DNA of 64,000 nucleotides from NCBI RefSeq assembly GCF_036226445.1, contig NZ_CP108474.1, forward strand, positions 7,688,001-7,752,000, given 5' to 3'. The notes under the pieces are model-generated. The model made no database searches. It was not told where the DNA came from and saw only the letters and a list, made by a program, of their open reading frames with translations. Numbering within the stretch: position 1 is the stretch's first letter; every line of letters begins with the position of its first letter. The position numbers and the translations under genes were made by a program. The stretch is from Streptomyces sp. NBC_01255 (GTDB lineage Bacteria > Actinomycetota > Actinomycetes > Streptomycetales > Streptomycetaceae). Shown piece after piece: positions 23,506 to 60,403 of the stretch.

Positions 23506-25389
23506 ATGACTGCACGGCCCCTCACCGACGTCGGCCCCACAAGCGATCTGTCGGAGGTCTTCGGGCTCGCCCAGCAGTTGCGGGCCGATTCCGTGCGCGC
23601 CAGCACCGCGGCGGGGTCCGGGCATCCCACATCCAGCCTGTCGGCCGCCGACCTCATGGCCGTCCTCATGACCCGCCACCTCCGCTACGCGTGGGACGCC
23701 CCCGACGACCCGGCCGCCGACCACCTGATCTTTTCCAAGGGGCACGCGTCGCCGCTCCTGTACGCGATGTTCAAGGCCGCGGGCGCGATCGGCGACGACG
23801 AGCTGATGACGACGTACCGCCGCTTCGGGCACCGTCTGCAAGGCCACCCCACCCCCGTCCTGCCGTGGGTGGACGTGGCGACCGGATCCCTCGGCCAGGG
23901 TGTCGGCTACGGCGTCGGCATCGCGCTGGCCGGCCGGGATCTGGAGAGGCTGCCCTACCGGGTGTGGGTGCTGTGCGGCGACAGCGAGACGGCCGAGGGG
24001 TCCGTGTGGGAGGCCCTCGGCAAGGCGGGCCACCGCCGGCTGGCCAACTTCACCGCCCTGATCGATGTGAACCGTCTCGGACAGAGCGGGCCGACCGAGC
24101 TGGAGTGGGACACCGATGCCTACGCCCGCCGTGCCGAGGCCTTCGGATGCCGGGCGATCGTGATCGACGGCCACGACCTCGAAGCGATCGACAGGGCCAT
24201 GACCACCGCCGCCGACGGGGAGGCACCCACCGTCATCGTCGCCAGGACCGTCAAGGGCCGCGGTGTGCCGGAGGTGGCCGACCGGGAGGGCTGGCACGGC
24301 AAACCGCTGCCCGCGGACGTCGCCGAGCGCGCGGTCGCCGAACTGTCCGGCGGCCACGAACTCAGAGCACGCGGACCGAGGCCGCCCACGGTCCCGTCCG
24401 ACCGCACGCTCCCGGCCGCGGCCGGGACCGTGGAACTGCCGCGCTTCGACGTGGGGGACGACGTGGCCACCAGGGTCGCCTTCGGCCGAGCGCTGGCGGC
24501 CCTCGGCGCCCGCCCCGACGTCGTCGCCCTGGACGCCGAGGTCGGCAACTCGACCCACGCCGAGGACTTCGGCAAGGCCCACCCCGAGCGGTACTTCCAG
24601 ACGTACATCGCCGAGCAGCAGATGATCGCGGACGCGGTCGGCATGGCCGTACGCGGGTTCCGCCCGTACGCCACCACGTTCGCCGCCTTCCTCACCCGCG
24701 CCCACGACTTCATCCGCATGGCCGCCGTCTCGCAGGTCACCCTCGCCCTGTGCGGGACCCACAGCGGTGTCGAGATCGGCGCGGACGGTCCGTCCCAGAT
24801 GGGCGTCGAAGACCTCGCCATGATGCGGGCGGTGCTCGGCTCCACCGTCCTGTACCCCAGCGACGCCACGTCCGCGGCAGCGCTGACGGCAGCGATGGCC
24901 GACGTGGACGGCATCTCGTACCTGCGTGCCACCCGCGGGGCCTACCCGGTGCTCTACGCCGACGGCGAGACCTTCCCTGTAGGAGGGTCCAAGACCCTCC
25001 GCCACGGGGAGGACGACCAGGTCACGCTCATCGGAGCCGGTGTCACCCTCCATGAGTGCCTCGCCGCCGCCGATCAGCTGGCCGACGAGGGCGTCCGGGC
25101 CCGGGTCGTCGACCTGTACTCCATCAAGCCGATCGATGCCGACACCCTCACGCGGGCCGCCCGGGAGACCGGCGCTCTCGTCGTCGCCGAGGACCACCAC
25201 CCCGAAGGCGGCATCGGTGAGGCCGTCCTCTCCGCCCTCGCCGCGGCAGGCGACCACCCCGCCTTCGCGCACCTCGCCGTCACCGGACTGCCGGGCTCCG
25301 GCGAAACCGACGAGCTCCTCGACGCGGCAGGCATTTCCCGCGCCCACGTCGTCCGGGCCGCGCGCACACTTGTCGCAGCCCGGGAGTGA
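23506..25389 (+). CDS. Transketolase
   Basis: 627 residues, single-chain transketolase. Visible parts: GSGHPTSSLSAADL, the thiamine-diphosphate motif CGDSETAEGSVWEALGKAGH with DVNRLGQSGPT, substrate loop H in TARTVKGRG-like VARTVKGRGVP, the catalytic Glu in YIAEQQMIADAVGMAVRG, and HSGVEIGADGPSQMGVEDLAMMR. It interconverts pentose- and hexose-phosphates. The start at 23506 has GGAAGGAG upstream. It is probably a second, conditionally expressed copy, since it is isolated from a tal-zwf operon and next to a stress sigma factor. Its last codons lie inside a 16-bp tandem repeat. Confidence 0.93.
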   Translation: MTARPLTDVGPTSDLSEVFGLAQQLRADSVRASTAAGSGHPTSSLSAADLMAVLMTRHLRYAWDAPDDPAADHLIFSKGHASPLLYAMFKAAGAIGDDELMTTYRRFGHRLQGHPTPVLPWVDVATGSLGQGVGYGVGIALAGRDLERLPYRVWVLCGDSETAEGSVWEALGKAGHRRLANFTALIDVNRLGQSGPTELEWDTDAYARRAEAFGCRAIVIDGHDLEAIDRAMTTAADGEAPTVIVARTVKGRGVPEVADREGWHGKPLPADVAERAVAELSGGHELRARGPRPPTVPSDRTLPAAAGTVELPRFDVGDDVATRVAFGRALAALGARPDVVALDAEVGNSTHAEDFGKAHPERYFQTYIAEQQMIADAVGMAVRGFRPYATTFAAFLTRAHDFIRMAAVSQVTLALCGTHSGVEIGADGPSQMGVEDLAMMRAVLGSTVLYPSDATSAAALTAAMADVDGISYLRATRGAYPVLYADGETFPVGGSKTLRHGEDDQVTLIGAGVTLHECLAAADQLADEGVRARVVDLYSIKPIDADTLTRAARETGALVVAEDHHPEGGIGEAVLSALAAAGDHPAFAHLAVTGLPGSGETDELLDAAGISRAHVVRAARTLVAARE

Positions 25390-25618: not shown

Positions 25619-26551
25619 ATGTCGACCGTCAGAGCCCCCTCCGTCACCTCGCGCTCCGCCGCCCCGGCCCCATCCGTGGTGGCGCCAGACGATGCGGAGG
25701 CCTCGACGCGACGCGCCGCGCTCGACGGGCTTCCCGCGCCCGTACACCCCACTGCCGTATCCACGGACGACGCCCGTTCCCTGTCCGTCTCGCTCTTCGC
25801 GCGACTGCGGGAGCTGGACGAGGGAACCCCGGAGTACTCCTACGTCCGCAACACCCTGGTGGAGCTCAACCTCAGCCTCGTCAAATTCGCCGCCCGCCGG
25901 TTCAGGAACCGCGCCGAGCCGATGGAGGACATCGTCCAGGTCGGCACGATCGGCCTCATCAAGGCGATCAACCGCTTCGACCCCGGCCGGGGCGTCGACT
26001 TCTCCTCCTTCGCCCTCCCCACGATCACCGGCGAGATGAAGCGCTTCTTCCGCGACACCAGCTGGGCCCTCCACGTCCCACGACGCCTCCAGGAGCTGCG
26101 GATGGACCTGGCGAAGGCCGCCGACACCCTGGAGCAGCGCCTCGGCCACCGCCCCGGCCGGGCCGAGATCGCCACGTACCTCCACCTCACGGAGGAGGAC
26201 GTCACCGAGGGTCAGCTCGCGGCCCACGCCTACGACGCCCGCTCCCTGGACGTACCGGCGAGCGACGAGGACGTCGGCCCCGGGGCGAGCGCCCGGCAGC
26301 TCTCGACGACGGAACCCTTCTACGAGCTGATCGAGTCCCTCATGGCGCTCCGCCCGCTCATCGCCGTGCTCGACGCCCGCGACCGGCGCATCCTCGAACT
26401 CCGCTTCGGCGAGGAACTCACCCAGGCCGAGATCGGCCGCCGCCTCGGCCTCTCCCAGATGCACGTCTCACGCCTGCTCAGCCGCATCCTCGGCGAACTC
26501 AGGAAGGGTCTCCTCCAGGACGGTCCCACGGCGGGCCGGACGGGTGGCTGA
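25619..26551 (+). CDS. SigB/SigF-family RNA polymerase sigma factor
   Basis: 310 residues with a Ser/Ala/Pro-rich N-terminal extension (~60). Region 2 is NLSLVKFAARRFRNRAEPMEDIVQVGTIGLIKAINRFDPGRGVDFSSFALPTITGEMKRFFRD. Region 3 carries VPRRLQELRMDL, and region 4 ELRFGEELTQAEIGRRLGLSQMHVSRLLSRILGELRKGL. These sigma factors govern general, osmotic and developmental stress genes and are held by RsbW-type anti-sigma factors. No anti-sigma gene is adjacent. GAAGGAG precedes the ATG. Confidence 0.93.
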   Translation: MSTVRAPSVTSRSAAPAPSVVAPDDAEASTRRAALDGLPAPVHPTAVSTDDARSLSVSLFARLRELDEGTPEYSYVRNTLVELNLSLVKFAARRFRNRAEPMEDIVQVGTIGLIKAINRFDPGRGVDFSSFALPTITGEMKRFFRDTSWALHVPRRLQELRMDLAKAADTLEQRLGHRPGRAEIATYLHLTEEDVTEGQLAAHAYDARSLDVPASDEDVGPGASARQLSTTEPFYELIESLMALRPLIAVLDARDRRILELRFGEELTQAEIGRRLGLSQMHVSRLLSRILGELRKGLLQDGPTAGRTGG

Positions 26552-34370: not shown

Positions 34371-35648
34371 TCACTGCCCGCCGATGCCCTGGTGGTCGGC
34401 CTGCTCCGCGATGGCCCGCCGGGCCGGGTCGGTGAACTCCCGCTCGATCGATTCCTGCAGGAGGCGCAGCTCCGTGCGCAGGGCGGAGTGCTGCGGTGGC
34501 GGCAGGGTGTCGAGCAGACCGTCGAGCATGGCCCGGAGCCTCCGGCAGATCTGCACGGACGACCCTCCGTAGTCACGGATCTCGCAGACGGCGAGCTGGA
34601 GGTAGTCGTCCCAGTCCCGGCCCGGGAGCACGAGCCGGGCGTCCCCACCGCGATCGGCCAGGACGTAACGCCCGGGGAGCCGCGTGCCGCCGACCGTGTG
34701 CAGGAACCACTCGATGTAGTTGATGACCTGCACCGCGGTCGTGGGGTCGTTCACCGCGGGGGAGAGAGCCCTGATCGCGATGTCGACGAGGACTCTCAGC
34801 GCGAAGGCGGGATCCTGTTCGATCGTGCGCTCGGCCCCGAGGGCCACGGAACCGGTCACCCGCTCAGGGTCGGGTCTGGACGTGCCCCCATGGACCTCCA
34901 CCAGCACGGTGCCGGGCGGTACGAAGTCCCCGATCAGCCGCGTCACGACGAGGACGCAGTCGTGGCGGCCCGCCTCCGCGACCAGACCGGGCACGTCGAA
35001 GGCCTGGATGACGCCGCCGCGCACGGTACGGATGCGCATCACCGGACCGTCCGACGGCACGGTTCCGCCTTCGCGGGGCGCGGCGCCCCGGATCGCCGCG
35101 GCGCCCTCGGTGAAGACGGCTTCTCCCAGGTGAGCGACCAACTCCGCGATGGCCACCGGTCGGAGGCGGTGGGTGAACCGGTTGAGGTAGACGAGCAGCA
35201 GTACCAGACTGACGGCCACCGCCGCACCGGCCAGGGTGACCCCGAGATCGGGGACCGATGAGGATTCGACACTCCTCAACAGGGAGAAGGCGAACGCGAA
35301 CGTCCCGGTGAAGGTCGCCAGAACCGCCTTCTGCAGCCGGTCCCGGTACCACAGGCGCATGTACCGGGGGGAGAGCGTTCCCGTGGCCTGCTGTACCACC
35401 AGCACGCCGATGGTGACGACGAACCCGAGCAGCGCCACCATCGCGCCCACGATGGCGGTGAGCACGCCGCTCGCGGTCGTGGCGGAGTAGTGCCAGCCGC
35501 TCGGCGGCCAGTCCGCGCTGTCGGCGGCGAGGGCCGCCTCGGCAAGAAGCGTGCCGAGGACGAGCCCGAGCATCGGCACGATCCACAGGCTGGCCTTGAT
35601 GTACTGCCGCCACCTGAACCTGGCCGCCCAGGACGGCCTGACGCCCAT
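34371..35648 (-). CDS. DUF2254 domain membrane protein
   Basis: 425 residues. Four N-terminal membrane helices (SLWIVPMLGLVLGTLLAEA, ASGVLTAIVGAMVALLGFVVTIGVLVVQQATG, QKAVLATFTGTFAFAFSLL, LGVTLAGAAVAVSLVLLLVYL) are followed by a long soluble part with the DUF2254 hallmarks SPRYMR, RALSPAVNDPTTAVQVI and an IREF-like CEIRDYGGSSVQICRRL. The family function is unknown; mechanosensitive or transport roles have been suggested by topology. It ends 4 bp from the regulator's stop in convergent orientation. Confidence 0.9.
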   Translation of the reverse strand: MGVRPSWAARFRWRQYIKASLWIVPMLGLVLGTLLAEAALAADSADWPPSGWHYSATTASGVLTAIVGAMVALLGFVVTIGVLVVQQATGTLSPRYMRLWYRDRLQKAVLATFTGTFAFAFSLLRSVESSSVPDLGVTLAGAAVAVSLVLLLVYLNRFTHRLRPVAIAELVAHLGEAVFTEGAAAIRGAAPREGGTVPSDGPVMRIRTVRGGVIQAFDVPGLVAEAGRHDCVLVVTRLIGDFVPPGTVLVEVHGGTSRPDPERVTGSVALGAERTIEQDPAFALRVLVDIAIRALSPAVNDPTTAVQVINYIEWFLHTVGGTRLPGRYVLADRGGDARLVLPGRDWDDYLQLAVCEIRDYGGSSVQICRRLRAMLDGLLDTLPPPQHSALRTELRLLQESIEREFTDPARRAIAEQADHQGIGGQ

Positions 35649-35858: not shown

Positions 35859-37709
35859 ATGGAGGACTATCCCCTGATCGAGGACCACGGTCTGATCGGT
35901 GATCTGCAGACCGCGGCGCTCGTGACGACCGACGGGACGATCGACTGGTTCTGCTGCCCCCGGTTCGATTCGCCCAGCGTCTTCGGCGCTCTGCTCGACC
36001 GGCGCAAGGGCGGCCACTTCACCGTGCGGCCGGTCGCGGACACGTACACGACGAAACAGCTCTACCACCCGGACACGGCTGTTCTGGTCACGCGCTTCAT
36101 GACGGAGGCCGGGGCGGGCGAGGTCGTCGACTTCATGCCGGTGACCGGGACCACCGCGACGGACCGGCACCGTCTCGTCCGTTTGCTCCGCTGCGTACGC
36201 GGCAGCATCACGTTCGAGGGGGAGTTCGCTCCGCGCTTCGACTACGGCCGCAAGCCGCACGAACTGCACGTCACCGAGTACGGCGCCCTGTTCACCTCGG
36301 ACGACCTGGACTTCGCCGTCCACCCCGTTCGTGAGCCGCAGGACGAGCGCCTGCTGCGCATCCGCCGGGGAGACAACGACGACCTGCAGTTCACCTTGAC
36401 CCTGCGGGCGGGGCAGCAGCGCGGCCTGGTCATGGAATCGGCCCCCGACGGGCCTCCCCGTGAGATCGGCCTGGAGGAGTTCGAGCGCCTCTTCGACGAG
36501 ACCGTCGGCTTCTGGCGCTCCTGGCTGGGGCAGTCCACGTACTCAGGCCGGTGGCGGGAGGCGGTGGAACGTTCCGCCGTGACGCTGAAGCTCATGACGT
36601 ACGCGCCGACCGGCGCCCTGGTCGCCGCACCCACGGCGGGCCTCCCCGAGCAGCTGGGCGGGGAGCGCAACTGGGACTACCGGTTCACCTGGATCCGTGA
36701 CGCCTCCTTCTCGGTGTACGCCCTGCTGGGCCTGGGATTCAAGGAAGAGGCGTCCGCGTTCATCAACTGGCTGCACGACCGGGTGAAGCAGGAGGCAGGC
36801 CAGGAGAACGGCTCGGGACCGCTGAACATCATGTACCGGGTCGACGGCTCCGCCGACCTGGTCGAGGAGACCCTCGACCACTGGGAGGGATACCGCGGCT
36901 CCGCCCCGGTCCGCATCGGCAACGGAGCGGCGAGCCAGCTCCAGCTGGACATCTACGGTGAGGCGCTCGACAGCATCTACTTCACGCACCAGCACGGCAT
37001 GCATCTCGACCACAACGGCTGGAAGGCCCTGCACACCCTGATCGACTGGTTGGCGGACCACTGGGATCAGCCCGACGAAGGGCTCTGGGAGACGCGCGGA
37101 GGCCGGAAGGACTTCACCTACGGTCGCGTCATGTCCTGGGTGGCCTTCGACCGCGCCCTGCGGATCGGCCAGGACGACGGCCGTCCCGCGGCCGGCGGAC
37201 GCTGGGTCGACGCGCGGGACAAGATCTACGCGCAGGTGTTCGACCGTGGCTGGGACCCGCGGAAGCGGGCGTTCGTGCAGCACTACGACGACGACGTGCT
37301 CGACTCGTCGCTGCTGCGCATGTCGACGGTCGGCTTCATCACGCCGGGCGACCCCCTGTGGAAGTCCACTCTGGACGCGATGGAGCGTGAACTGGTCAGC
37401 GACAGCCTCGTCTACCGCTACAACCCCGAGGCGTCCCCCGACGGACTGCGCGGCTCCGAGGGAACCTTCTCCCTGTGCACGTTCATGTACGTCGACGCCC
37501 TGGCCCGGGCCGGACGCACCGACATGGCCAGGCTGGTGCTGGAGAAGATGCTCACGTACGCCAACCACCTGGGGTTGTACTCCGAGGAGATCGATCTGAC
37601 GGGACGACAGCTGGGCAACTTCCCCCAGGCCTTCACGCATCTGGCACTGATCGATGCCGCGATCACCCTGGACTCGATGCTTCAGGACACGCGGCGCGCC
37701 GGACGGTAG
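35859..37709 (+). CDS. GH15 family glycoside hydrolase (trehalase/glucoamylase type)
   Basis: 616 residues, without signal peptide. The N-terminal beta domain begins YPLIEDHGLIGDLQTAALVTTDGTIDWFCCPRFDSPSVF. The (alpha/alpha)6 domain contains RNWDYRFTWIRDASFSVYAL (general acid region), NGAASQLQLDIYGEALDSIYF, and the late LYSEEIDLTGRQLGNFPQAFTHLALIDAA, where the catalytic base Glu is expected in SEEID. Actinobacterial homologues include cytoplasmic trehalases. It would release glucose from an alpha-glucoside inside the cell. It converges with the antiporter gene with only 16 bp between stops. Confidence 0.95.
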   Translation: MEDYPLIEDHGLIGDLQTAALVTTDGTIDWFCCPRFDSPSVFGALLDRRKGGHFTVRPVADTYTTKQLYHPDTAVLVTRFMTEAGAGEVVDFMPVTGTTATDRHRLVRLLRCVRGSITFEGEFAPRFDYGRKPHELHVTEYGALFTSDDLDFAVHPVREPQDERLLRIRRGDNDDLQFTLTLRAGQQRGLVMESAPDGPPREIGLEEFERLFDETVGFWRSWLGQSTYSGRWREAVERSAVTLKLMTYAPTGALVAAPTAGLPEQLGGERNWDYRFTWIRDASFSVYALLGLGFKEEASAFINWLHDRVKQEAGQENGSGPLNIMYRVDGSADLVEETLDHWEGYRGSAPVRIGNGAASQLQLDIYGEALDSIYFTHQHGMHLDHNGWKALHTLIDWLADHWDQPDEGLWETRGGRKDFTYGRVMSWVAFDRALRIGQDDGRPAAGGRWVDARDKIYAQVFDRGWDPRKRAFVQHYDDDVLDSSLLRMSTVGFITPGDPLWKSTLDAMERELVSDSLVYRYNPEASPDGLRGSEGTFSLCTFMYVDALARAGRTDMARLVLEKMLTYANHLGLYSEEIDLTGRQLGNFPQAFTHLALIDAAITLDSMLQDTRRAGR

Positions 37710-37725
37710 GCGGGCCGCGAGCGCC

Positions 37726-39501
37726 TCAGCGTGGTGCGGTGGTGGGCGCGGGCCCGAGGAGGACGACGGTGTCACCCTCCTGAGGGACGGTCTTCTGTCG
37801 CTCCGTGACGGGCTCCAGCCGGTGGTCCGCCCGTACCACGAACAGCGTGTCGTACTCCGGCGGCAGCGGGGCGGCGGCCGGCCGCACCGTGAACCGGGCT
37901 CCCCGCCCGTACCGCTCCGCGAGGACGTGGCGGACCAGGGAGCGGCCGAAGAGGATGTCGCCGCCGGTGTACGGAGCGACCACGCCGTGGCTGTCGTGCG
38001 GCGGCCCCACCCGGTAGACGGGGCCCTCGACGTTGTCCTGCATCACGATCGAGGCGAGCGCGTTGAAGTCGTCGTCGTCCGTGGCGAGGAAGACGGCCGT
38101 CACGCCCTCCAGACGGGCCCCGGGGTTGATGGCCGTGGCCAGCAGATCGCCCTTCGCCAGTTCGAGGCCCGCCCGCTTGATCCGTTCCCGTTCCTCGTCG
38201 AGTCCCGCCCACATGAGTACGTCGAGGCCGGCGGACCGCAGGGCGTTGCCCAGGTCGACCACCCACGGTTCGCCGCCCACCAGGAGGACGCGGGTGCCCT
38301 CCGCCTTGACGACGCCCAGCCGTCTGGCCACGGGCGCCGCCGTCAGCGCGTAGAGCAGCACGGTTCCCACGATCACCAGGAAGGTGACGGGGAGGACCTT
38401 CGCCGCCCCGGGCACTCCCCGTTCCACCAGGCCCGCGGAGAAGGCCGACGCCGTCGCCGCCGCGACGATGCCGCGTGGGTCCATCCATCCGACGAAGGCA
38501 CGCTCGCCGCGTGAGAGGTCCGTGCGCGCCGCGGCGCCGAAGGCCACGATCGGGCGGACCACCAGGACGAGGATCGCGATCAGACCGAGCGAGGGGAGGA
38601 GCACCGGCACCAGCGACGCCGGGGTGACCGTGGAGGAGATGGAGACGAACAGCAGCCCGATGATCAGCTGGACCAGGGTCTCCAGGAACGGGCGGCGCGC
38701 GGGCATGTCGAAGCCGCGGATGTTGGAGACGGCGAGGCCCGCCACGATCGCGGCGATGAGCCCCGTGTCGTCCCGCACGATGTCACAGCCCGCGGACACG
38801 CCGATCACGACGGCGAGCTGGGCCAGGGTGCCCAGGGTCTCGCCGAGTCGCAGGGTGCGCAGGGTGAACCAGAGCAGAGCGGTTGCCACGATCCCGCCCG
38901 CCAGCCCGAAGGCGAGGCTGAGCATGAACTGACCCAGCTGGTAGCCCCGACCGATGTCGATCCGGTGCGTCGAAGCGACCGCGTGGAAGGTGAGGGCGCC
39001 GAGAATGGCACCGATCGGGTCGGTCAGCGTCCCTTCCCAGATCAGGATGCGCCGCACCTTGTCGCTCGGCCGTACGAAGTCGAGGATCGGCCCCACGACC
39101 GTGGGCCCGGAGACGACGAGGATCATGCCGAGCATCGCGGCCACGCGCAGCGGCATGTCGAACATCGCCGGTGCCACCGTCCCGGTGACGAGGAAGGTGA
39201 GCAGCACGCCGTACACGAGCAGCCTGCCCACGATCCCCCGGGTGTGGTGGGCCAGCTTGCGCAGGTCGAGCCCCAGACCGGCGTCGTAGAGGATCACCGC
39301 GACGGCCAGCGACACCATGGCGGAGAAGTCCGGGCCCAGCAGCTTCTCCGGGTGGATGACGTCCGTGATCGCGCCGGCGGCGAACCCGACGGGCAGCAGG
39401 ATGATCAGGGCCGGGACGCGCAGTTTGCTCGCCAGGATCTGCGAACCGGTGGCGAGCACCACCGTCAGGGCGAGTCCGAGAAGGATCTCGTCGTCGGTCA
39501 C
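37726..39501 (-). CDS. Cation:proton antiporter (CPA1-like) with TrkA domain
   Basis: 591 residues. About 12 helices contain the CPA motifs LAVAVILYDAGLGLDL and VVSGPTVVGPILDF with GTLTDPIGAILGAL. A C-terminal Rossmann-type TrkA-N unit (VLLVGGEPWVVDLGNALRSAGL, FLATDDDDFNALASIVMQDN) and TrkA-C (DTLFVVRADHRLEPV, PQEGDTVVLLGP) follow. It exchanges Na+ or K+ for H+, gated by nucleotide. The GTG start overlaps the cydB stop by GTGA, indicating translational coupling to the bd oxidase. Confidence 0.93.
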   Translation of the reverse strand: MTDDEILLGLALTVVLATGSQILASKLRVPALIILLPVGFAAGAITDVIHPEKLLGPDFSAMVSLAVAVILYDAGLGLDLRKLAHHTRGIVGRLLVYGVLLTFLVTGTVAPAMFDMPLRVAAMLGMILVVSGPTVVGPILDFVRPSDKVRRILIWEGTLTDPIGAILGALTFHAVASTHRIDIGRGYQLGQFMLSLAFGLAGGIVATALLWFTLRTLRLGETLGTLAQLAVVIGVSAGCDIVRDDTGLIAAIVAGLAVSNIRGFDMPARRPFLETLVQLIIGLLFVSISSTVTPASLVPVLLPSLGLIAILVLVVRPIVAFGAAARTDLSRGERAFVGWMDPRGIVAAATASAFSAGLVERGVPGAAKVLPVTFLVIVGTVLLYALTAAPVARRLGVVKAEGTRVLLVGGEPWVVDLGNALRSAGLDVLMWAGLDEERERIKRAGLELAKGDLLATAINPGARLEGVTAVFLATDDDDFNALASIVMQDNVEGPVYRVGPPHDSHGVVAPYTGGDILFGRSLVRHVLAERYGRGARFTVRPAAAPLPPEYDTLFVVRADHRLEPVTERQKTVPQEGDTVVLLGPAPTTAPR

Positions 39502-40532
39502 TGCGGTTTCCTTCCTGCTCGTAGGTCGGAGTCGGTGAGCTCCTCCAGCTCGCCGCGGGCGTCGAGCCAGTAGAGGAAGACGACGGCCGGCACGACGAGC
39601 ACCAGGGCCACGAGGGTCACGAACGCCAGCCACGTCAGGGTGGCGGGCGCGCCGGCGGCGTCGGCGACGGTGAGCGAGGTGGGGAGAAGGTAGGGGCGCT
39701 GGGCCATGCCCCAGGCGAGGACCGCGGACGCGACGACGCCGACCGCCGAGACGCGCAGCCACATGCCCGGTGTACGCAGGAGCAGCAGGCCGGTCGCGAG
39801 TGCGGCGGCTCCGGCGACGGCGACGAAGAGCAGTCCCAGGCCGTGGGTGAGGCCGTGCCACACGTAGGGGGAGTCCTCATGGGTGACGAACCCGGTGACC
39901 ACGGCCAGGACGGTCAGCACGCCGAGACTGCCCAGTGCCCGCCGCCTGAAGTAGCCGACGAGATCGGGCGCCTCGAATCTGCGGGCGTCACCGGTGAGGA
40001 ACACCGCGCCGAGGAAGGCCGTGGTCGCGATCGCCACCAGCCCGAACACGAGCGAGGTGGGGTTGATCCAGGCGTCGGCCGAGGCCGTCGTACCGGGCGT
40101 GACGCGTCCCGACGCGATGCCTCCGACGGCGGCTCCGAGGAAGAACGGCGTCACGAGCGAGGCCACGGCGAACACGGCACCGAACAGGCGCCGTCCGGCG
40201 AGCCGCCGGGTGGGCTTGCGGAAGGCGAATCCGGCGCCACGCAGGACCATGCCCACCACCGCCAGGGCCAGCGGCAGCCACATCGCGGAGAACACGGTCT
40301 GGAAGAGGGTGGGGAAGCCGGTCCACATGACGACGAGGACGAAGACGAGCCAGACGTTGTTCACCTCCCACACCGGAGCCATGGCGTGGTCGATGAGCCA
40401 CCGGGGGCGCCGGCCGCGTTCCGTCCCTCCGGCGGTCAGGTCCCAGAATCCGGCCCCGTAGTCCGTACCGCCGGCGCAGGCGTACGCGGTCACGGCGAGG
40501 AGCAGCACGATGGCGATGAGGTCGGCGGTCAT
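39498..40532 (-). CDS. cydB: Cytochrome bd ubiquinol oxidase subunit II
   Basis: 344 residues with ~9 membrane helices; the typical CydB start (IAIVLLLAVTAYACAGGTDYGAGFWDLTAGG) and WEVNNVWLVFVLVVMWTGFP. CydB pairs with CydA to form the high-affinity quinol oxidase that reduces O2 to water and resists cyanide, NO and sulfide. The start ATG overlaps the cydA stop (ATGA at 40529-40532). No cydD/cydC assembly transporter lies downstream: the next gene is an antiporter. Confidence 0.95.
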   Translation of the reverse strand: MTADLIAIVLLLAVTAYACAGGTDYGAGFWDLTAGGTERGRRPRWLIDHAMAPVWEVNNVWLVFVLVVMWTGFPTLFQTVFSAMWLPLALAVVGMVLRGAGFAFRKPTRRLAGRRLFGAVFAVASLVTPFFLGAAVGGIASGRVTPGTTASADAWINPTSLVFGLVAIATTAFLGAVFLTGDARRFEAPDLVGYFRRRALGSLGVLTVLAVVTGFVTHEDSPYVWHGLTHGLGLLFVAVAGAAALATGLLLLRTPGMWLRVSAVGVVASAVLAWGMAQRPYLLPTSLTVADAAGAPATLTWLAFVTLVALVLVVPAVVFLYWLDARGELEELTDSDLRAGRKPQ

Positions 40533-41989
40533 GGGCGACCGTTCCCCGTGCGACCGTTCGCGGCGGCCTTCTGCGCGGCCCGTGGGCCGTAGGGGGTGTC
40601 GGCCTCGGGATCCGGTGCCGCACCACCCGCCGCGCGCTGTTCGTCCGCGAGCCGCCAGCGCGTCCGCATCGACAGCAGGATCCGGAGGAACGTACCGAAC
40701 AGGAGGACGTACACCACCATGACCACGCCGAGCATGATCCACAGGGTGCCGGCACGGGTCGACGTCACCGCCTCGGCGACCCGCATGTTCTCGTACACGA
40801 TCCAGGGCTGGCGTCCCACCTCGGTGGCGATCCAGCCGCACTCGACGGCCACCACGGAGGCCACGCCCGCACAGGCCGCCGCGCGGTAGAACCACGTCGA
40901 GGCGGGCGGTCGGCGGTGCCGCAACCAGACGAACCCGTACCAGAGGGCGAGCAGGACCAGCGCGGATCCGATCAGGACCATGATGTCGAAGGCCCAGTGC
41001 GCGATGGTCGCCTGGGTCGCGGTGGGGCGCTGGTCCGCGGGGACGGAGGTCAGTCCCACCACTTCGGTGTTCGGGCTGAACCCGGCCAGGACCGAGTCGA
41101 GGAGCGGGATCTTGATGCCGCCCGAGACGGTGCCGTCCTCGTGGAGCCTCCCGAAGAGGTACTCCGGTACCCGGGTGTCGGTCTTCCAGACGATCTCCAT
41201 CGCGGCGAACTTCACCGGCTGCTTGTGGAACACCGACCGGGCGATGGCGTCGCCGAGGACGAACTGCACCGGGGTGGCGACGGCGGCGATGGTGAAGGGC
41301 ACGGTGAAACCGAGCCGGTGGTAGTGGTCCCGGCGGCCGCGCAGCCAGCCGACGGCATAGACCCCGGCCACCATGAAGCCCGCCGTGATGATCATCGCCA
41401 CGACGAAGTGCCAGTACTGCGGTCCGAACATCGGCGTGAAGATCGCCTTCCAGACGTTCACGTCGACCGGGTTGCCCGCGGAGTCGAGCGAGAAGCCCTG
41501 CGGCGTGTTCATCCAGGAATTGGCGGCCAGGATGCCGAACGCGCCGAGCAGTGCGGCGAACGGCAGGGGCAGCCCGAGGAGGAAATGCGTCCGCGGCTTC
41601 AGCCGCCGCCACCCGTACAGATAGATCGCGATGAGCACGGCCTCCAGGAAGAAGGCCCAGGCCTCGACGCCGAATCCGATGCCGAAGACATCGCCCCACC
41701 TCCCCATCAGGCCGGGCCAGAGCAGACCGAACTCGAACGACAGCACCGTGCCCGTGACGATGCCGAGCGCGAACTGCACCGCCATGACGGCCGACCAGCG
41801 CCGCGCCAGGAGCAGGGCCGTGGGGTCCGCGCGGCGCAGCCCGCGGTAGTGCATGACCAGGGTGATGAAGGGGAAGGCGACGCCCAGGGGTACCAGGATG
41901 ATGTGGGAGGCCAGCGTGAAGGCCATGAGTTCCCGGGCCGGCAGGAGTTGGGCCGGGGCATCCGCCAGCAGGTGGAGCGAGGTGGACAT
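40529..41989 (-). CDS. cydA: Cytochrome bd ubiquinol oxidase subunit I
   Basis: 486 residues, heme-bearing subunit. Features: N-terminal LMAFTLASHIILVPLGVAFPFITLVMHYRGL with a heme-ligand His, GPQYWHFVVAMIITAGFMVAGVYA with the second His, KFAAMEIVWKT, and the GRQPW motif (EVGRQPWIVYENMRVAEAV). The Q-loop is short, as in non-enterobacterial enzymes. The first gene partner upstream is an SDR 42 bp away. Together with cydB it would oxidise menaquinol at low O2 or when cytochrome c oxidase is inhibited. Confidence 0.96.
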   Translation of the reverse strand: MSTSLHLLADAPAQLLPARELMAFTLASHIILVPLGVAFPFITLVMHYRGLRRADPTALLLARRWSAVMAVQFALGIVTGTVLSFEFGLLWPGLMGRWGDVFGIGFGVEAWAFFLEAVLIAIYLYGWRRLKPRTHFLLGLPLPFAALLGAFGILAANSWMNTPQGFSLDSAGNPVDVNVWKAIFTPMFGPQYWHFVVAMIITAGFMVAGVYAVGWLRGRRDHYHRLGFTVPFTIAAVATPVQFVLGDAIARSVFHKQPVKFAAMEIVWKTDTRVPEYLFGRLHEDGTVSGGIKIPLLDSVLAGFSPNTEVVGLTSVPADQRPTATQATIAHWAFDIMVLIGSALVLLALWYGFVWLRHRRPPASTWFYRAAACAGVASVVAVECGWIATEVGRQPWIVYENMRVAEAVTSTRAGTLWIMLGVVMVVYVLLFGTFLRILLSMRTRWRLADEQRAAGGAAPDPEADTPYGPRAAQKAAANGRTGNGRP

Positions 41990-42031
41990 GCAAGCCTTCG
42001 CTGTTCGTGGACGTGACAGGCCGGGAGACGG

Positions 42032-42871
42032 TCAGCCGCCCGTGGCGAAGCCCGGGAAGAGCGTCATGCCGCCGTCGACGTACAGGGTGGTCCCCACCAC
42101 GTAGTCCATGAGGTCGGAGGCGAGCGCGACGACGGCGTGCGCGATGTCCTCGGGGTCGCCGATCCGGTCGTACGGGATGAGCCGCAGGAGGTCCTCCCGC
42201 GCCTCGGCCGTCTCCCAGGCAGCGCGGTTGATCGGCGTCTTGATCGCCCCCGGGGCGACCGCGTTCACCCGGATCTTCTCCGGCGCCAGCTCCTGGGCCA
42301 GGGTCTGCATCATCATCTGCACCCCGCCCTTGGAGGACGCGTAGTTGACGTGGCCCGACCAGGGGATGAGCTGGTGCACCGAACTCATACAGACGATCTT
42401 CCCGGCGGAGCGGGAGACCTCCGGGACCACGCCCCGGCGCCGGAACTCCTTGGCCGCCTCCCGGGCGCACAGGAACTGACCGGTGAGATTGACGTCGATG
42501 ACCTTCTGCCACTGGGCGAGGGTCATGTCCGTGAGCCGGGCGTCACGCTGCAGTCCCGCGTTGGCCACGAGGACGTCGATGGTGCCGAACTCCTCGACCA
42601 TCCGCGCCGTCATGGCGACGACCTGGTCCTCCTGGGACACGTCGGCCTCGTACGCCGCGGCGCGCACCCCGAACGAGGCGATCTCCCGGACCACCTCTTC
42701 GGCGGCCTCCCGGCCCGCCACGTAGTTCACGACCACGTCGGCGCCCGCGCGGCCCAGACCGATGGCCGTGGCCTTGCCGATGCCCGAATTGGCGCCGGTG
42801 ACCAGCGCCTTCTGGCCGTGCAGCAAGCGCTCCGGGATCACGCTCCGCGGTGCCCCCACAGTGGAATCCAT
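42032..42871 (-). CDS. SDR family oxidoreductase, glucose 1-dehydrogenase-like
   Basis: 279 residues. Cofactor motif ALVTGANSGIGKATAIGLGRAGADVVVNYV, NAG strand VLVANAGLQRDARL, catalytic Ser in KIVCMSSVHQLIPWSGHVNYASSKGG with the YxxxK, and the tail YVVGTTLYVDGGMTLFPGFATGG. This tail and the HQxIPW loop are characteristic of bacterial glucose 1-dehydrogenases and close relatives, which oxidise glucose to gluconolactone with NAD(P). It is the first gene of the cyd operon by spacing (42 bp). Confidence 0.88.
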   Translation of the reverse strand: MDSTVGAPRSVIPERLLHGQKALVTGANSGIGKATAIGLGRAGADVVVNYVAGREAAEEVVREIASFGVRAAAYEADVSQEDQVVAMTARMVEEFGTIDVLVANAGLQRDARLTDMTLAQWQKVIDVNLTGQFLCAREAAKEFRRRGVVPEVSRSAGKIVCMSSVHQLIPWSGHVNYASSKGGVQMMMQTLAQELAPEKIRVNAVAPGAIKTPINRAAWETAEAREDLLRLIPYDRIGDPEDIAHAVVALASDLMDYVVGTTLYVDGGMTLFPGFATGG

Positions 42872-43031
42872 TCCCTGCCTCCTCGCTGCGCGGCCGCGCC
42901 GAGCCCGTGGCCGGCGCGGCCGGGCGTCTCACGCAATCACCCGATGAGGCGGTCGGCCTCTCCTCCGAATCGTCGTTGCGCCGTTGAGCCCAGCATCTTC
43001 CTCCGGACGGACCAGCGGACGGGCGCCGTTC

Positions 43032-44636
43032 TCAACCCAGCCGGGCCAAGAGGTGGTCCCCGACCCGGAGGGCGTTGGCGATGGCCGTCAAGGACGGGTT
43101 GACCGCGCCGATGCTCGGGAAGAAGCTCGTGTCGACCACGTACAGGTTGTCGAGGTCGTGGGCTTTGCAGTCGACGTCAAGTGCGGAGGTGGCGGGGTCG
43201 GTGCCGAATCGGACGGTGCCCGCCTGGTGCGCCGTCGCACCGATCGGCATGCCCTTGTGCAGGTAGATGCTGCGGGACAGCAGGTGGTGCTCGTGCATGC
43301 CGAGGTGGCCGAGCATTCCCTGCAGCTTGTGCCGCAACCGCCTCAGGCCTTCGACGTTGTTCTTCTCGTCGAGTGTGAGACGGATGCGGGCGTCGCCGTC
43401 GAGAGTGACCCGGTTGTCCGGCAGGGGGAGATCCTCACCGCACAGCCAGAAGTCGACGGCGTGATGCGCCAGCACCTCGAACGGCATGTCGGGTGTCACC
43501 GCACCGGCCCATCGGGGGGCCTCCCCGTGGATCTGTTCGGCATCCGACTTGCCCAGCATCTGGATGCCGCCCAACGGGAACTCCCAGTCGTCCGCGCCGA
43601 AGTACCAGTCGTTGAGGGCGAGGGTCTTCTGGAACCGGGTGTCATTGGGTTCCTTCGACACCGCCATCAGGGCGAGGTTGTTGTGCCGCATGTAGAACCG
43701 GCCGACCACGTCCGAGCTGTTGGCGAGGCCACGGGGATGGTGGTCGTTCGCCGAGGCCAGCAGCAGCGCGGCGGAGTTGACCGCCCCGCACGAGACGACC
43801 ACCACGTCCGCCGTGTACCGGACCTCCGAACCGTCCGCCAGCCGGCCGACGACCGCGCTGACGCTGTGTCCCCGGGCGTCGGTCTCCAGACGGACCACCT
43901 GGGTGTGCGTGACCATCTCGACGTTGGGGTGCTCCAGGGCCGGACCCACACAGATCACCTCGGCGTCGGACTTCCCTCGCACGAGGCACGGAAAGCCGTC
44001 GACCCGGTCGCATCGGATGCAGACGCTGGAGTGGGCGGCCCGCCCCCCGTCCTCCTGGCTCAGATCGACGCCGATCGGGAGGTGGAAGGGGTGCAGACCG
44101 CGCCTCTCGAGGTCGTCGCTCAGCTGCTGGATGCGCGGCTCGTGCTCCACCGGTGGACGGGCGTACTGCGCGCTCACCGGGCCTTCGCCGGGATCCTCGC
44201 CGTGCCGTCCGTGGACGAGGTAGAGGTGCTCGGCCTGCGTGTAGTACGGCTCCAGATCCTCGTACCGGATCGGCCAGGCCGGGGACATGCCGCCGTGATG
44301 CCGGATCTCGCCGAAGTCCTCCGGACGCAGCCGGAAGAGGGCGGCCCCGTAGAACTTGGTGTTGCCGCCGACGTAGTAATTGACCTCGGGCGGGAACTCG
44401 TCGCCGTTCCTGTCCAGCCAGAACTCCGGCGCGCGGTACTTGCCCCGGACGAACACGGCCGTCGAGTCCCAGTTGTCCCGCTCCCGCGGAAGGTAGCCGC
44501 CGCGTTCGACAAGGAGGACGCGTTTGCCGGACGGGGCGAGCCGATGGGCGAGAGTGCCTCCGCCGGCGCCGGTGCCGATGATGACGACGTCGTAGTGAGG
44601 GGCGTCGCCCATGGCGACCACCGTCCTTGGAATCAT
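43032..44636 (-). CDS. GMC family FAD oxidoreductase
   Basis: 534 residues (ATG 44636; ATG 44612 begins MGDAPHYDVVIIG). FAD-binding DVVIIGTGAGGGTLAHRLAPSGKRVLLVERGG, VNYYVGGNTKFYGAALFRLRPEDF, and the GMC C-terminal catalytic pair: His in ATAHQAGTVRFG and Asn in IGAVNPSLTAIANALRVGDHLL. GMC enzymes oxidise sugars, cholesterol or alcohols and pass electrons to O2 or a membrane acceptor. Lack of a signal peptide argues for a cytosolic enzyme. Its place above the dehydrogenase-bd oxidase run suggests a sugar or polyol substrate. Confidence 0.93.
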   Translation of the reverse strand: MIPRTVVAMGDAPHYDVVIIGTGAGGGTLAHRLAPSGKRVLLVERGGYLPRERDNWDSTAVFVRGKYRAPEFWLDRNGDEFPPEVNYYVGGNTKFYGAALFRLRPEDFGEIRHHGGMSPAWPIRYEDLEPYYTQAEHLYLVHGRHGEDPGEGPVSAQYARPPVEHEPRIQQLSDDLERRGLHPFHLPIGVDLSQEDGGRAAHSSVCIRCDRVDGFPCLVRGKSDAEVICVGPALEHPNVEMVTHTQVVRLETDARGHSVSAVVGRLADGSEVRYTADVVVVSCGAVNSAALLLASANDHHPRGLANSSDVVGRFYMRHNNLALMAVSKEPNDTRFQKTLALNDWYFGADDWEFPLGGIQMLGKSDAEQIHGEAPRWAGAVTPDMPFEVLAHHAVDFWLCGEDLPLPDNRVTLDGDARIRLTLDEKNNVEGLRRLRHKLQGMLGHLGMHEHHLLSRSIYLHKGMPIGATAHQAGTVRFGTDPATSALDVDCKAHDLDNLYVVDTSFFPSIGAVNPSLTAIANALRVGDHLLARLG

Positions 44637-44761
44637 GGCCCCGACCTGGTGTCAGGCACCTGGCGCCCCGCTGGGCGGGGGTCCGGCGGCCCACCTCCTT
44701 CGAACGTAGCCGCCCTCCTCGTGGACGGCGACCGGAGGGCGGGCCCCGGCACGCGTACGGT

Positions 44762-45715
44762 TCACAGCACCGCTATGGGGTTCACGGGCGATCCCGTGGC
44801 TCCGGTCAGCCGCAGAGGGGCGACCACACACAGGAAACTCCAGCGCCCGGTCCGCGCGCAGACCGGGACGAGGTCCTCGAACCGCAGGTAGTCCATGAGG
44901 TGGACCCCCATGGCATGGATGGCCAGGACGTGCACGGGGAAGGCGACGTCCTCCACCACGCTGGGCGCGGTGTCGTTGTTGCCGTCGCCGCCCAGAGCCG
45001 CGACGTGGCGCTCGGCCAGGAAGTCCACGGCGGTCGGGTGAAGGCCCGCCCGTGCCTCGGCCGAGTCCCACGGCCCGAGTTCGGTGCGCCGAAGGCGATG
45101 TCCCACCCTGACGAACAGCAGGTCGCCCGGTCCGACACGGACCCCCTGCGCGGCCTCGGCGGCCGTCAGGTCGTCCGAGGTCACGGAGTCGCCCGGCTCC
45201 AGCCAGGGCACGCCACGCAGCCGCGGGACGTCCAGCAGGACCCCCCGGCCGACGATGCCGTTCTCGAGCACGTCGACGGAGAGCCGCCGGGCGCCGTCGG
45301 CGGTCACGGTACGCGCGGGCACCCCGCCGTAGAGCTCCCCGTCGAACACCACATGGCAGAGGGCGTCGAGATGACTGTCCGCGTCGCCGTGCACGTTCAT
45401 GGCGAAGCGGTCCGTGGCGAAGTGGAGCGCGTGCGAGCCGAGTTCGCTCGCGCTCGGCCCGGTCATCCGGTGTACCGCGGGCTCGGGATCGTCAGGGCCT
45501 CGCACGGTCTCGATCGGAGCCGCCAGCGACACCGTGTCCCCCGTGCGGACTTCCGCGGCCGCCGCCGCCACCCGCTCAGGTGTCAGATGGCGGAGCGCGC
45601 CGCACCGGCCGTCCACGGCCGGCGGCGCCGCCTGGTTCCGGAGCCGCTCGTAGAGCGCCCGGAAATCGCGCGCGGTCATGCCGCTCGCCGTCGGCGGCTC
45701 CAGGGACGGGGTCAT
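44762..45715 (-). CDS. Cyclase family (kynurenine-formamidase-like) hydrolase
   Basis: 317 residues. Metal site in MNVHGDADSHLDALCHVVFDGELYGG (HxGxDxHxDxxxH pattern) and the C-terminal HVLAIHAMGVHLMDYLRFEDL. The cyclase superfamily hydrolyses amides and lactones or isatin/kynurenine-type substrates; a lactonase activity toward gluconolactone-like compounds is conceivable but not shown. ATG 45715 overlaps the stop of the gluconokinase-epimerase fusion by ATGA, with GGAG five bases before the start. Confidence 0.85.
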   Translation of the reverse strand: MTPSLEPPTASGMTARDFRALYERLRNQAAPPAVDGRCGALRHLTPERVAAAAAEVRTGDTVSLAAPIETVRGPDDPEPAVHRMTGPSASELGSHALHFATDRFAMNVHGDADSHLDALCHVVFDGELYGGVPARTVTADGARRLSVDVLENGIVGRGVLLDVPRLRGVPWLEPGDSVTSDDLTAAEAAQGVRVGPGDLLFVRVGHRLRRTELGPWDSAEARAGLHPTAVDFLAERHVAALGGDGNNDTAPSVVEDVAFPVHVLAIHAMGVHLMDYLRFEDLVPVCARTGRWSFLCVVAPLRLTGATGSPVNPIAVL

Positions 45716-47190
45716 GAGTACTCCCATGGGCTCAGCCCCCAGCGGAACACGTGGGTCGCCCCCGGTGGCAGGACGGTGAGATCCGTGCCGGTACGGAAGG
45801 CGTCCGGAGGACAGGACATCGCCTCCACGGCGACTCCCCGTCGCCGCCGTTCGGGTTCGGGTTCGGCCAGGGTGTCGCCCGTGTACACCTGTACGCAGCG
45901 GGTTCCCTCGCCGAGCCAGAGGTCGATGCCCCGCAGTCCGGAGGGGTGCGCCAGCCGGACGATCGCCCGCCCGTCAGGGTCGCGGTCGAGTCCGGTGAAG
46001 GCACTGTCGAGCCGTAGGTCGCCGATGGGGCGGGCGGTGCGGAAGTCGTACGGGGTGCCGTCGACGGGCTCCTGACCGAGGGGCAGGCCCCTGTCGTCGG
46101 TACGCAGCAGGCTCCGGGCGGGAACGGTGAGCACGGCGCTGTCGACGAGATCGGTGCCGACCGTGAGATAGGGATGCTGGCCCACACCGTACGGCGCGGG
46201 TTCGGTACCGGTATTGGTGGCCCGGACCGAGACGCCGAGCCCGTCGGGCCCCAGCCGGTACTCGACACGGACATCGAGGAGGAACGGATATCCGGGCTGC
46301 GGACAGAGCGTCGTGCCGAGCATGAGCGCGTCATCGGTGCGGGCGAGCAGTTCCCACAGAGTCCAGCGAAGCAGGCCGTGGATCGCGTTGCCCTTCTCCA
46401 CCTCGGTCAGGGGGAGTTGCAGATCCCTGCCCTCGAAGCGGTAGCGTCCGCCGCCCACGCGGTTCGGCCAGGGGACGAGCAGTTGCCCCCGCCCGCCCGT
46501 GATGGTGGACTCCGCGGAGAACCCGTCGAGCAGCGGACCGCCGTTCACGGCGTAGTCGCGCAGGGCGCCGCCCAACTGGACCACGTCCGCGCTCTGCTCT
46601 CCCCGGACCAGCCGCCATGACCTGCCCGTGGGACCGGGGGGTGTCTTGCCGATCAGGCCGGACCCCTGGCGCATGAGCGACAGCACAGCGGTGACGACGG
46701 CCTCCGGAGGCTGGTCGATCTCCACCACCAACGGGTGCTCATCGGGCTCCGGCTCCTGAAGGACCGCGAGCTGGCTGTCCAGCAGGACCGCCGGGAAGAA
46801 GTGACCGCGCCGCGCCTCCAGCCGGGACTTCAGCAGCTCGCGCGAGCCGTGCAGATACACCAGAAGAGCGTCGGGACGCCCTGCCAGCAGCAGGTCCCGG
46901 TACGCCCGCTTGAGCGCCGAGCAGGAGACGACGGCCCGCCGGCCGGCCGCGGTCGCCCGGTCCATCCACTCCCCGATCGCTTCGAGCCACGGCTCCCGGT
47001 CGCTGTCCGTGAGGGCATGGCCGGCGGCCATCTTGGCGCGGTCGGCCTCGGAGTGGAACTCGTCCGCGTCCCGGTACGCCCAGCCCAGTCGCTCGGCGAG
47101 GAGGCGCCCCACTGTCGACTTGCCCGACCCGGCGATGCCGACGACGAGAACCAGCCGCGGAGGCTCACCTGTCGTTTCTTCGCGTGCCAT
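45712..47190 (-). CDS. Gluconokinase-aldose 1-epimerase fusion
   Basis: 492 residues. The first ~175 form a GntK-type gluconate kinase: P-loop VLVVGIAGSGKSTVGRLLAERLG, YRDADEFHSEADRAKMAAGHALTDSDREPWL, CSALKRAYRDLLL. Residues ~190-492 form an aldose-1-epimerase-like barrel: PWPNRVGGGRYRFEG, NAIHGLLRW, YGVGQHPYL (catalytic His region), DSAFTGLDRD and AVEAMSCPPDAFR (catalytic Glu region). One continuous frame, no internal stop or restart site. The two activities normally come from separate genes. The start MAREETTGEPPRLVLVVG at 47190 is preferred over longer upstream in-frame starts. Confidence 0.9.
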   Translation of the reverse strand: MAREETTGEPPRLVLVVGIAGSGKSTVGRLLAERLGWAYRDADEFHSEADRAKMAAGHALTDSDREPWLEAIGEWMDRATAAGRRAVVSCSALKRAYRDLLLAGRPDALLVYLHGSRELLKSRLEARRGHFFPAVLLDSQLAVLQEPEPDEHPLVVEIDQPPEAVVTAVLSLMRQGSGLIGKTPPGPTGRSWRLVRGEQSADVVQLGGALRDYAVNGGPLLDGFSAESTITGGRGQLLVPWPNRVGGGRYRFEGRDLQLPLTEVEKGNAIHGLLRWTLWELLARTDDALMLGTTLCPQPGYPFLLDVRVEYRLGPDGLGVSVRATNTGTEPAPYGVGQHPYLTVGTDLVDSAVLTVPARSLLRTDDRGLPLGQEPVDGTPYDFRTARPIGDLRLDSAFTGLDRDPDGRAIVRLAHPSGLRGIDLWLGEGTRCVQVYTGDTLAEPEPERRRRGVAVEAMSCPPDAFRTGTDLTVLPPGATHVFRWGLSPWEYS

Positions 47191-52429: not shown

Positions 52430-53281
52430 ATGTCCCGACCCGTCACTGTGGGAGTGGACGGCTCAGAAGGAAGCGTGGCGGCGGTGGACTGGGCCGCCGA
52501 CGAGGCGGCGCTGCGCGGCGACGGCCTGCGACTGGTGTACGCCACGCGGTGGGCGGAGCATCAGTTGGGGGCGATGAAGGTGTCGCACGCTGACCGTGCA
52601 GGCGAGGCGAAAGGCGTCCTGGCCGCGACAGAGCGGCGTGTCGGTTCCCGGCAGCCGGACCTCGCCATGACCGCCGACGAGGTCGAGGACGGCCCCGTCA
52701 ACGTGCTGCTCTCCGCCGCCTCCCAGGCGGAGTTGCTCGTCGTGGGCTCGCATGGGTTGGGCAGCGTCCGCGGGTTCATCGTCGGTTCGGTGGGGCAGGA
52801 GGTCGTCGCGGGAGCCGAGCGTCCGGTGGTTCTCGTTCGCCCCGGATACGAGAAGGACGGTTCCGGCGCGTCCGAGGGGAGCAGCCGCCGGAAAGTGGTC
52901 CTCGGCCTCGATGTGAACGACGTCAAGGACGAGCTCTTGCACTTCGCGTTCGACTTCGCGGGGCGGCACCGCGTACCGCTGGAGATCGTGCACACGTGGC
53001 ACGATTCCTTCGTCCACCACCCCGACGCGGCCACGAAGGACGAGAGGGCGTCAGCGCTTGCCACCGCGGTGCGGCCCTTCCGGGACAGGTTCCCGGAGAC
53101 GGAGGTGGCGGAGGTGTCCGCCCTGGGACGGGCGGCCGAGCATCTCATCGAGGCCGCGTCGGACGCCCGCCTCGTGGTCGTCGGCCGGCGCAGGGCGGCC
53201 AGGGGCGCGCACATCGGATCGGTCACCCACGCCGTCATCCACCACGCCTCCTGCCCTGTGGCCGTCGTACCGCACACCTGA
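52430..53281 (+). CDS. Universal stress protein, two Usp domains
   Basis: 283 residues, tandem Usp folds. The first has VTVGVDGSEGSVAAVDWAADEA and the ATP loop VVGSHGLGSVRGFIVGSVGQEV...PVVLVR (G-x2-G-x9-GS). The second has VVLGLDVNDVKDELLHFAF and VVVGRRRAARGAHIGSVTHAVIHHASCPVAVV. An ATP-binding stress/dormancy protein is expected. ATG 52430 sits behind GAGGAGAG; longer upstream starts add a non-Usp tail. Confidence 0.93.
   Translation: MSRPVTVGVDGSEGSVAAVDWAADEAALRGDGLRLVYATRWAEHQLGAMKVSHADRAGEAKGVLAATERRVGSRQPDLAMTADEVEDGPVNVLLSAASQAELLVVGSHGLGSVRGFIVGSVGQEVVAGAERPVVLVRPGYEKDGSGASEGSSRRKVVLGLDVNDVKDELLHFAFDFAGRHRVPLEIVHTWHDSFVHHPDAATKDERASALATAVRPFRDRFPETEVAEVSALGRAAEHLIEAASDARLVVVGRRRAARGAHIGSVTHAVIHHASCPVAVVPHT

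Positions 53282-55747: not shown

Positions 55748-58237
<2,490 letters not shown>

Positions 58238-58509: not shown

Positions 58510-60403
<1,894 letters not shown>

Follow-up and report, generated by a model that had tools for sequence, protein, structure and literature searches.

Why should a cytochrome bd oxidase be encoded among genes for sugar oxidation? The question is raised by a cluster at 35859-47190 of the window, by which we mean the whole 64,000-nucleotide stretch analysed here (7.69-7.75 Mb on the main contig of the 8.57 Mb genome of Streptomyces sp. NBC_01255), where genes for a GH15 glycosidase, an SDR, a GMC flavoprotein, a cyclase-family enzyme and a gluconokinase accompany cydA, cydB and an antiporter gene. 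A preliminary description, made from the letters alone, had proposed that these genes act as a unit linked to a terminal oxidase, and our comparisons bear this out: the genes very likely form a functional unit, and a conserved module recurring in several phyla is strongly supported. That the clustering exceeds chance follows from its conservation among Streptomyces and in other phyla, from control loci, and from a tree of the GMC protein. The pathway that we favour, and regard as probable, would lead from an intracellular glucoside through glucose and gluconate to 6-phosphogluconate, with electrons delivered to quinone and cytochrome bd.

Organization of the cluster

The genes named in the preliminary description are present where it placed them, with scores above the cut-offs of Pfam and NCBIfam profiles; nine window proteins were scanned with Pfam.

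35859..37709, +, GH15 alpha-glucosidase with TREH_N domain (trehalase-like); PF00723 246.2 bits, PF19291 77.7 bits
37726..39501, -, CPA-type Na+(K+)/H+ antiporter; PF00999 109.1 bits
39498..40532, -, cydB, cytochrome bd subunit II; PF02322 208.9 bits (cut-off 35.6)
40529..41989, -, cydA, cytochrome bd subunit I; PF01654 407.8 bits (cut-off 26.2)
42032..42871, -, SDR, glucose 1-dehydrogenase group; 1gee match 221.4 bits, PRK07231 226.9 bits (cut-off 215)
43032..44636, -, GMC flavoprotein dehydrogenase with conserved CxxCx7C; Pfam above cut-off, structure model, profile comparison
44762..45727, -, cyclase-family hydrolase, candidate lactonase; PF04199 above cut-off
45712..47190, -, gluconokinase (GntK/IdnK type)-aldose 1-epimerase fusion; TIGR01313 162.7 bits (cut-off 113.75), PF01263 153.2 bits

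The leftward run begins with the kinase-epimerase fusion and continues through the cyclase, GMC, SDR, cydA, cydB and antiporter genes. Four-base overlaps join cydA to cydB (ATGA), cydB to the antiporter gene (GTGA), and kinase to cyclase (ATGA) if the latter starts at 45715, which is possible; these overlaps suggest translational coupling, as had been proposed for cydAB and the antiporter gene. The remaining gaps are 125 bp (cyclase-GMC), 160 bp (GMC-SDR) and 42 bp (SDR-cydA). Some details needed revision. The antiporter gene starts at about 39501, not at the mechanical reading-frame start of 39861; the GH15 gene is present as described but lies on the opposite (+) strand, outside the leftward run, converging on the antiporter gene across a 16-bp gap, and its TREH_N domain is added here; and the GntK assignment stands, although the fused epimerase had been overlooked. 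The fusion gene starts with ATG at 47190, with GGAGG 13 bases upstream, and third-position GC content is coding-like in the cluster frames for which it is listed. A terminator scan returned 0 sites, a weakly informative result because shuffled sequence itself yields only 2.1.

Conservation within Streptomyces

A GMC orthologue (at least 72% identity) is present in 33 of 150 same-genus genomes, the source genome included. In neighbourhoods of 3-20 kb around GMC (33 loci from 32 genomes), content is mostly kept together while order and strand vary, with three arrangements: that of the window, GMC facing cydAB, and parts spread out with inserted genes. Near GMC are found the cyclase (29 loci), GH15 (27), cydB (27), cydA (24), SDR (22), the antiporter (19), the GntK/GalM family (13) and a separate GntK (11). 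The gene order is thus not unique to this strain, as these loci and those of other phyla attest.

Presence and absence over the 150 genomes, scored with strict E cut-offs, gave 33 genomes with GMC, 32 with the cyclase, 39 with cydA of the window type and 45 with the SDR. GMC and cyclase occur together in 32, GMC alone in one and the cyclase alone in none; among GMC-bearing genomes, one lacks the cyclase, three lack cydA and four lack the SDR. In one of the three cydA misses (G130), cydB lies at the very end of a contig and cydA may merely have been cut off. Fisher values for co-occurrence were 7e-32, 3e-20 and 2e-15, ignoring relatedness. Nine genomes carry cydA without GMC and cyclase, with the SDR adjoining cydA in seven and GH15 nearby in six, and in one genome GMC is 7.8 Mb distant from a group made up of cyclase, SDR and cydAB. 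Because the cydA-only genomes mostly keep SDR and GH15 without GMC or cyclase, there seem to be two sub-units, GMC with cyclase and SDR with cydAB, each usually accompanied by GH15. At 27 control loci, centred on weaker GMC matches in the same genomes (too short for the 40% filter in 7), cyd, GH15, cyclase, zwf and COX1 genes were all absent, NDH-like genes occurred at two and an SDR at one.

Distribution beyond Streptomyces

Across 396 genomes of the phylum, 12 have a GMC match at E 1e-60 or better, and in one locus from another class (L086) zwf, GH15, GMC, NDH-2, cydA, cydB, DUF389, cyclase, PfkB kinase and epimerase genes fall within 13 kb. The wider sample comprises 86 loci: 80 named ones, which are not a random draw but the best of at least 553 relatives when sorted by similarity to a single distant actinobacterial GMC, and six more distant. 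Many named loci are metagenome assemblies, and the gene calls come from a simple home-made program, so that gaps are approximate and short genes may have been missed. Record titles place them in Actinomycetota, Chloroflexota, Verrucomicrobiota, Planctomycetota, Chlamydiota, Cyanobacteria and Pseudomonadota.

Dehydrogenase and sugar genes at the 86 loci include SDR (35), zwf (32), GH15 (30), GH63-like (21), gluconolactonase (13), cyclase (10) and epimerase (8); respiratory and transport genes include NDH-2 (28), cydA (25), cydB (24), MFS transporters (25) and COX1 (9). GMC is often operon-tight with GH15 or GH63, zwf, SDR, gluconolactonase and NDH-2. Runs with overlapping or near-touching ends read cydA-cydB-GH15-NDH2-GMC in Nocardioidaceae, Kribbella, Jiangella and Nocardioides (L105, L112, L118, L127); tight runs read cydA-cydB-SDR-GMC-GH15-NDH2 in Cellulomonas (L107, L117), GH63-GMC-MFS-SDR-NDH2-cydA-cydB in a Spartobacteria metagenome-assembled genome (L114), cydA-cydB-GH63-GMC-MFS-SDR in Accumulibacter (L169) and COX1-COX3-GMC-GH63-GMC in Synechococcus (L168, L170). 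In Synechococcus and relatives (L167, L168, L170) the GH63-like gene lies between two GMC genes, directly behind COX1-COX3 and on the same strand; the first of the two GMC proteins resembles the query at no more than 37-39%.

Exchange of the terminal oxidase

The window CydA and CydB pass both Pfam cut-offs, and CydA contains GRQPW and QPxKxAAxE, which we take to be the conserved haem/quinol motifs of cytochrome bd, in alignment with two solved bd menaquinol/quinol oxidases. The genome has two further CydA places, whose products are about 29-30% identical to the window CydA where alignable, and two COX1 genes.

Among the named loci, 42 have flanks of 8 kb or more on either side. Of these, 18 have a bd oxidase, 7 a heme-copper oxidase and 17 neither; an oxidase of either kind, the bd enzymes being of two divergent lineages, is thus near GMC at 25. 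For scale, five oxidase places per 8.57 Mb, counted in the source genome only, would put one in about 1.2% of random 20-kb stretches. The 25 CydA proteins at relatives' loci comprise 11 of the window-like lineage (50-56%), 12 resembling the genome's main copy (41-47%) and two others. We placed five neighbour states on a quick GMC tree with 84 rows, of which 54 carried a label (L106 by hand, as window-like bd, from a 58% tblastn match) and 30 none, owing to short flanks with no oxidase. The state changes at least 18 times (window-like bd 8, main-type bd 5, other bd 2, heme-copper 5, none 11), and nearly all changes are forced by well-supported branches. Even within Cellulomonas the oxidase lineage differs (L119 versus L107 and L117) with the neighbourhood kept. 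Our interpretation is that the terminal oxidase was replaced several times over and that a need for such an enzyme would have persisted throughout; some of the changes are losses.

Proposed pathway

The structure model of the GMC protein is closest to the large subunits of FAD-glucose and fructose dehydrogenases, a fold matched by the profile comparison as well, in which FAD-glucose dehydrogenase is the highest-scoring solved protein (222.5 bits versus 179.8 for fructose dehydrogenase). Three near-invariant cysteines align where those enzymes bind iron-sulfur clusters; the spacing differs, being CxxCx7C in the module GMC and CxxCxxCx4C in most relatives. The best solved matches of the SDR are glucose 1-dehydrogenases. 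The GH15 protein has both TREH_N and GH15 domains, as in GH15 trehalase, and trehalose is on that account our best guess for its substrate; among solved structures its profile best matches isomaltose glucohydrolase, at 41.9 bits. Inspection by eye revealed no obvious signal peptide, and the module proteins look cytoplasmic. The kinase gene encodes a whole aldose 1-epimerase domain, and the fusion is widespread in Streptomyces, being present in each of the 120 relatives listed out of 1895, S. venezuelae-type strains among them; other loci have separate GntK and epimerase genes. GH15 enzymes are inverting, so cleavage of trehalose would yield one alpha- and one beta-glucose, and the fusion would be explained if a mutarotase helped a beta-specific dehydrogenase. 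The window contains no SMP-30 gluconolactonase and does contain the PF04199 cyclase; among the 86 loci, cyclase (10) and SMP-30 (13) coincide only once (L088), a pattern confounded by phylogeny. The exclusive pairing of cyclase with GMC, and the presence of SMP-30 in clusters mostly without it, suggest that the cyclase is a lactonase.

In the scheme that we favour, GH15 would release glucose from an alpha-glucoside inside the cell, most likely trehalose, and the epimerase domain would balance the anomers. Oxidation of glucose at C1 would be the task of the NAD-linked SDR and the GMC flavoprotein; the resulting gluconolactone would be opened to gluconate by the cyclase-family enzyme, and GntK would form 6-phosphogluconate, feeding the pentose-phosphate pathway. 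NADH, by way of NDH-2 (inside the cluster in relatives), and electrons from GMC would reach quinone, and CydAB would pass electrons from the quinone pool to O2. The families fit the series from glucose to 6-phosphogluconate that had been suggested, and at the same place relatives also carry zwf, gluconolactonase and NDH-2. The preliminary description further supposed, as a guess, that such a unit might be of use at low O2 or under oxidative attack. A bolder version, which we hold only tentatively and think doubtful, is a widespread "glucoside respiration" in which an iron-sulfur GMC passes electrons from free glucose directly to the quinone pool and a dedicated oxidase. If such a chain exists, a stored disaccharide could be oxidised as far as gluconate with no outlay of ATP and no need of NAD or complex I, and the oxidase would be an interchangeable component, drawn in the course of evolution from two bd lineages and the heme-copper oxidases.

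Several observations weigh against the proposed pathway. GH15 falls below the cut-offs of both trehalase equivalogs, which are archaeal models (TreH1 374.5, cut-off 820; TreH2 316.9, cut-off 1000). The SDR scores 274.7 bits with the tighter glucose-1-dehydrogenase model PRK08936, below its cut-off of 420. The CxxCx7C motif also occurs in five of seven close GMC paralogues without the module, and few partners are kept in five Streptomyces loci (L050, L056, L060, L065, L067). No NDH-2 lies in the window cluster, the nearest in the genome being 26-29% identical and far away. No shared promoter motif was found upstream of module genes in tests for SigB-like and Rex-like sites (the latter 0 of 177 upstream stretches). 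Finally, an oxidase is out of reach at 17 of the 42 full-flank loci and absent from 51 of the 86 overall, many of these cut by contig ends, so that it is a frequent, not an obligatory, partner. The seven paralogues (L068-L074) are the closest in Streptomyces, 43-51% alike, and occupy other conserved neighbourhoods, L071 and L072 having one long gene order in common.

Neighbouring genes

A gene for a DUF2254 membrane protein (34371-35648, -) adjoins GH15, and such a gene accompanies the module at 5 of the 33 Streptomyces loci and at 3 of the 86 others. Some 9-12 kb to the left of the cluster, a transketolase gene (23506-25389, +; NF004559, 912 bits over 488) is directly followed by one for a SigB/SigF/SigG-family sigma factor (25619-26551, +; TIGR02980, 266.6 bits over 234.35); the pair could serve the pentose-phosphate end of the pathway and its control, although SigB-like sites show no enrichment. 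To the right lie genes for a universal stress protein with two Usp stretches (52475-53281, +), a catalase-peroxidase-like haem peroxidase of 729 aa with two PF00141 stretches (55748-57937, -) and, in this outer part of the chromosome, enolase (59096-60403, +; PF00113, 410 bits).

Alternative explanations

The cluster might instead be a stress or osmo-adaptation island, whose genes share conditions of use (drying, osmotic or acid stress) and serve parallel functions, namely trehalose turnover, ion transport and a robust oxidase, rather than one electron path. Its Streptomyces companions fit such a view, including the K+/Na+ antiporter, a ClC channel (13 of 33 loci), DUF389 (11 of 33), BrkB, SHOCT, DUF6325, DUF7144, DUF2252, DUF2254 and a PP2C/SpoIIE protein, as do the Usp protein and sigma factor of the window. 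We nevertheless consider it unlikely: the stretches ahead of module genes show no excess of SigB-like promoters (6 of 196 versus 5 of 240, p 0.55), and outside Streptomyces ClC, DUF389 and the antiporter are rare (3-5 of 86 loci) while the dehydrogenase, glycosidase and oxidase genes persist with overlapping ends.

Less probable still is that the module serves the respiration of some other sugar or polyol, GMC and cyclase acting on a substrate such as fructose, a glycoside, or a 3-keto or uronic derivative; the link to cytochrome bd would then be real. The neighbours (glucose-1-dehydrogenase-like SDR, gluconokinase, zwf, SMP-30/gluconolactonase and glucose-releasing GH families) point to glucose, as does the preference of the GMC profile for FAD-glucose over fructose dehydrogenase. 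Chance, or passive inheritance of an old neighbourhood of no functional meaning, is very improbable. Like labels do tend to group together in the GMC tree, which is what inheritance would predict (18 changes against a shuffled mean of 29.9; 0 of 200 shuffles as low), but content stays while order and strand are shuffled, oxidase lineages are exchanged in a neighbourhood that is kept, and the control loci are empty.

Implications

The physiological electron donors of divergent cytochrome bd enzymes have rarely been established, and a functional unit of this kind offers them a likely donor pathway. It also suggests a role for a large, so far unassigned GMC clade and for a cyclase family never found without GMC in 150 Streptomyces genomes. 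If the proposed pathway is correct, many soil bacteria could respire stored sugar by a short route past glycolysis and complex I, which would bear on survival of drying, dormancy and low oxygen.

Comparison with known systems

Our literature searches found no description of this module, and its parts have relatives in three known systems. The nearest solved relatives of the GMC protein are the FAD-glucose dehydrogenase of Burkholderia cepacia and the fructose dehydrogenase of Gluconobacter japonicus, flavin dehydrogenases that pass electrons to the respiratory chain and not to O2. In those enzymes the flavoprotein is partnered by a small subunit and a cytochrome c, located at the outer face; in contrast, neither subunit is among the nine window proteins scanned, the module genes look cytoplasmic and the GMC cysteines are differently spaced.

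A close metabolic parallel is the gluconate shunt of obligate methanotrophs, in which an NAD-linked glucose dehydrogenase and GntK together channel free intracellular glucose into the pentose-phosphate or Entner-Doudoroff pathway; shunt mutants have raised glucose, trehalose and gluconate (PMC8062543). The window kinase is of the GntK/IdnK type of the shunt, and the SDR is a candidate counterpart of its dehydrogenase. Unlike for our module, the main text on the shunt makes no mention of a GMC enzyme, a gene cluster or a terminal oxidase (PMC8062543). In Streptomyces, a Rex-controlled cytochrome bd encoded by cydABCD is known (PMC5355995). The window cydAB belongs to these CydA and CydB families but differs in its CydA (about 29% to the main copy), in its sugar-gene neighbours, and in having neither cydCD adjoining it nor a Rex-like site. 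The parts of the module are thus of known kinds, and its composition, its breadth and the exchange of its oxidase seem to be new.
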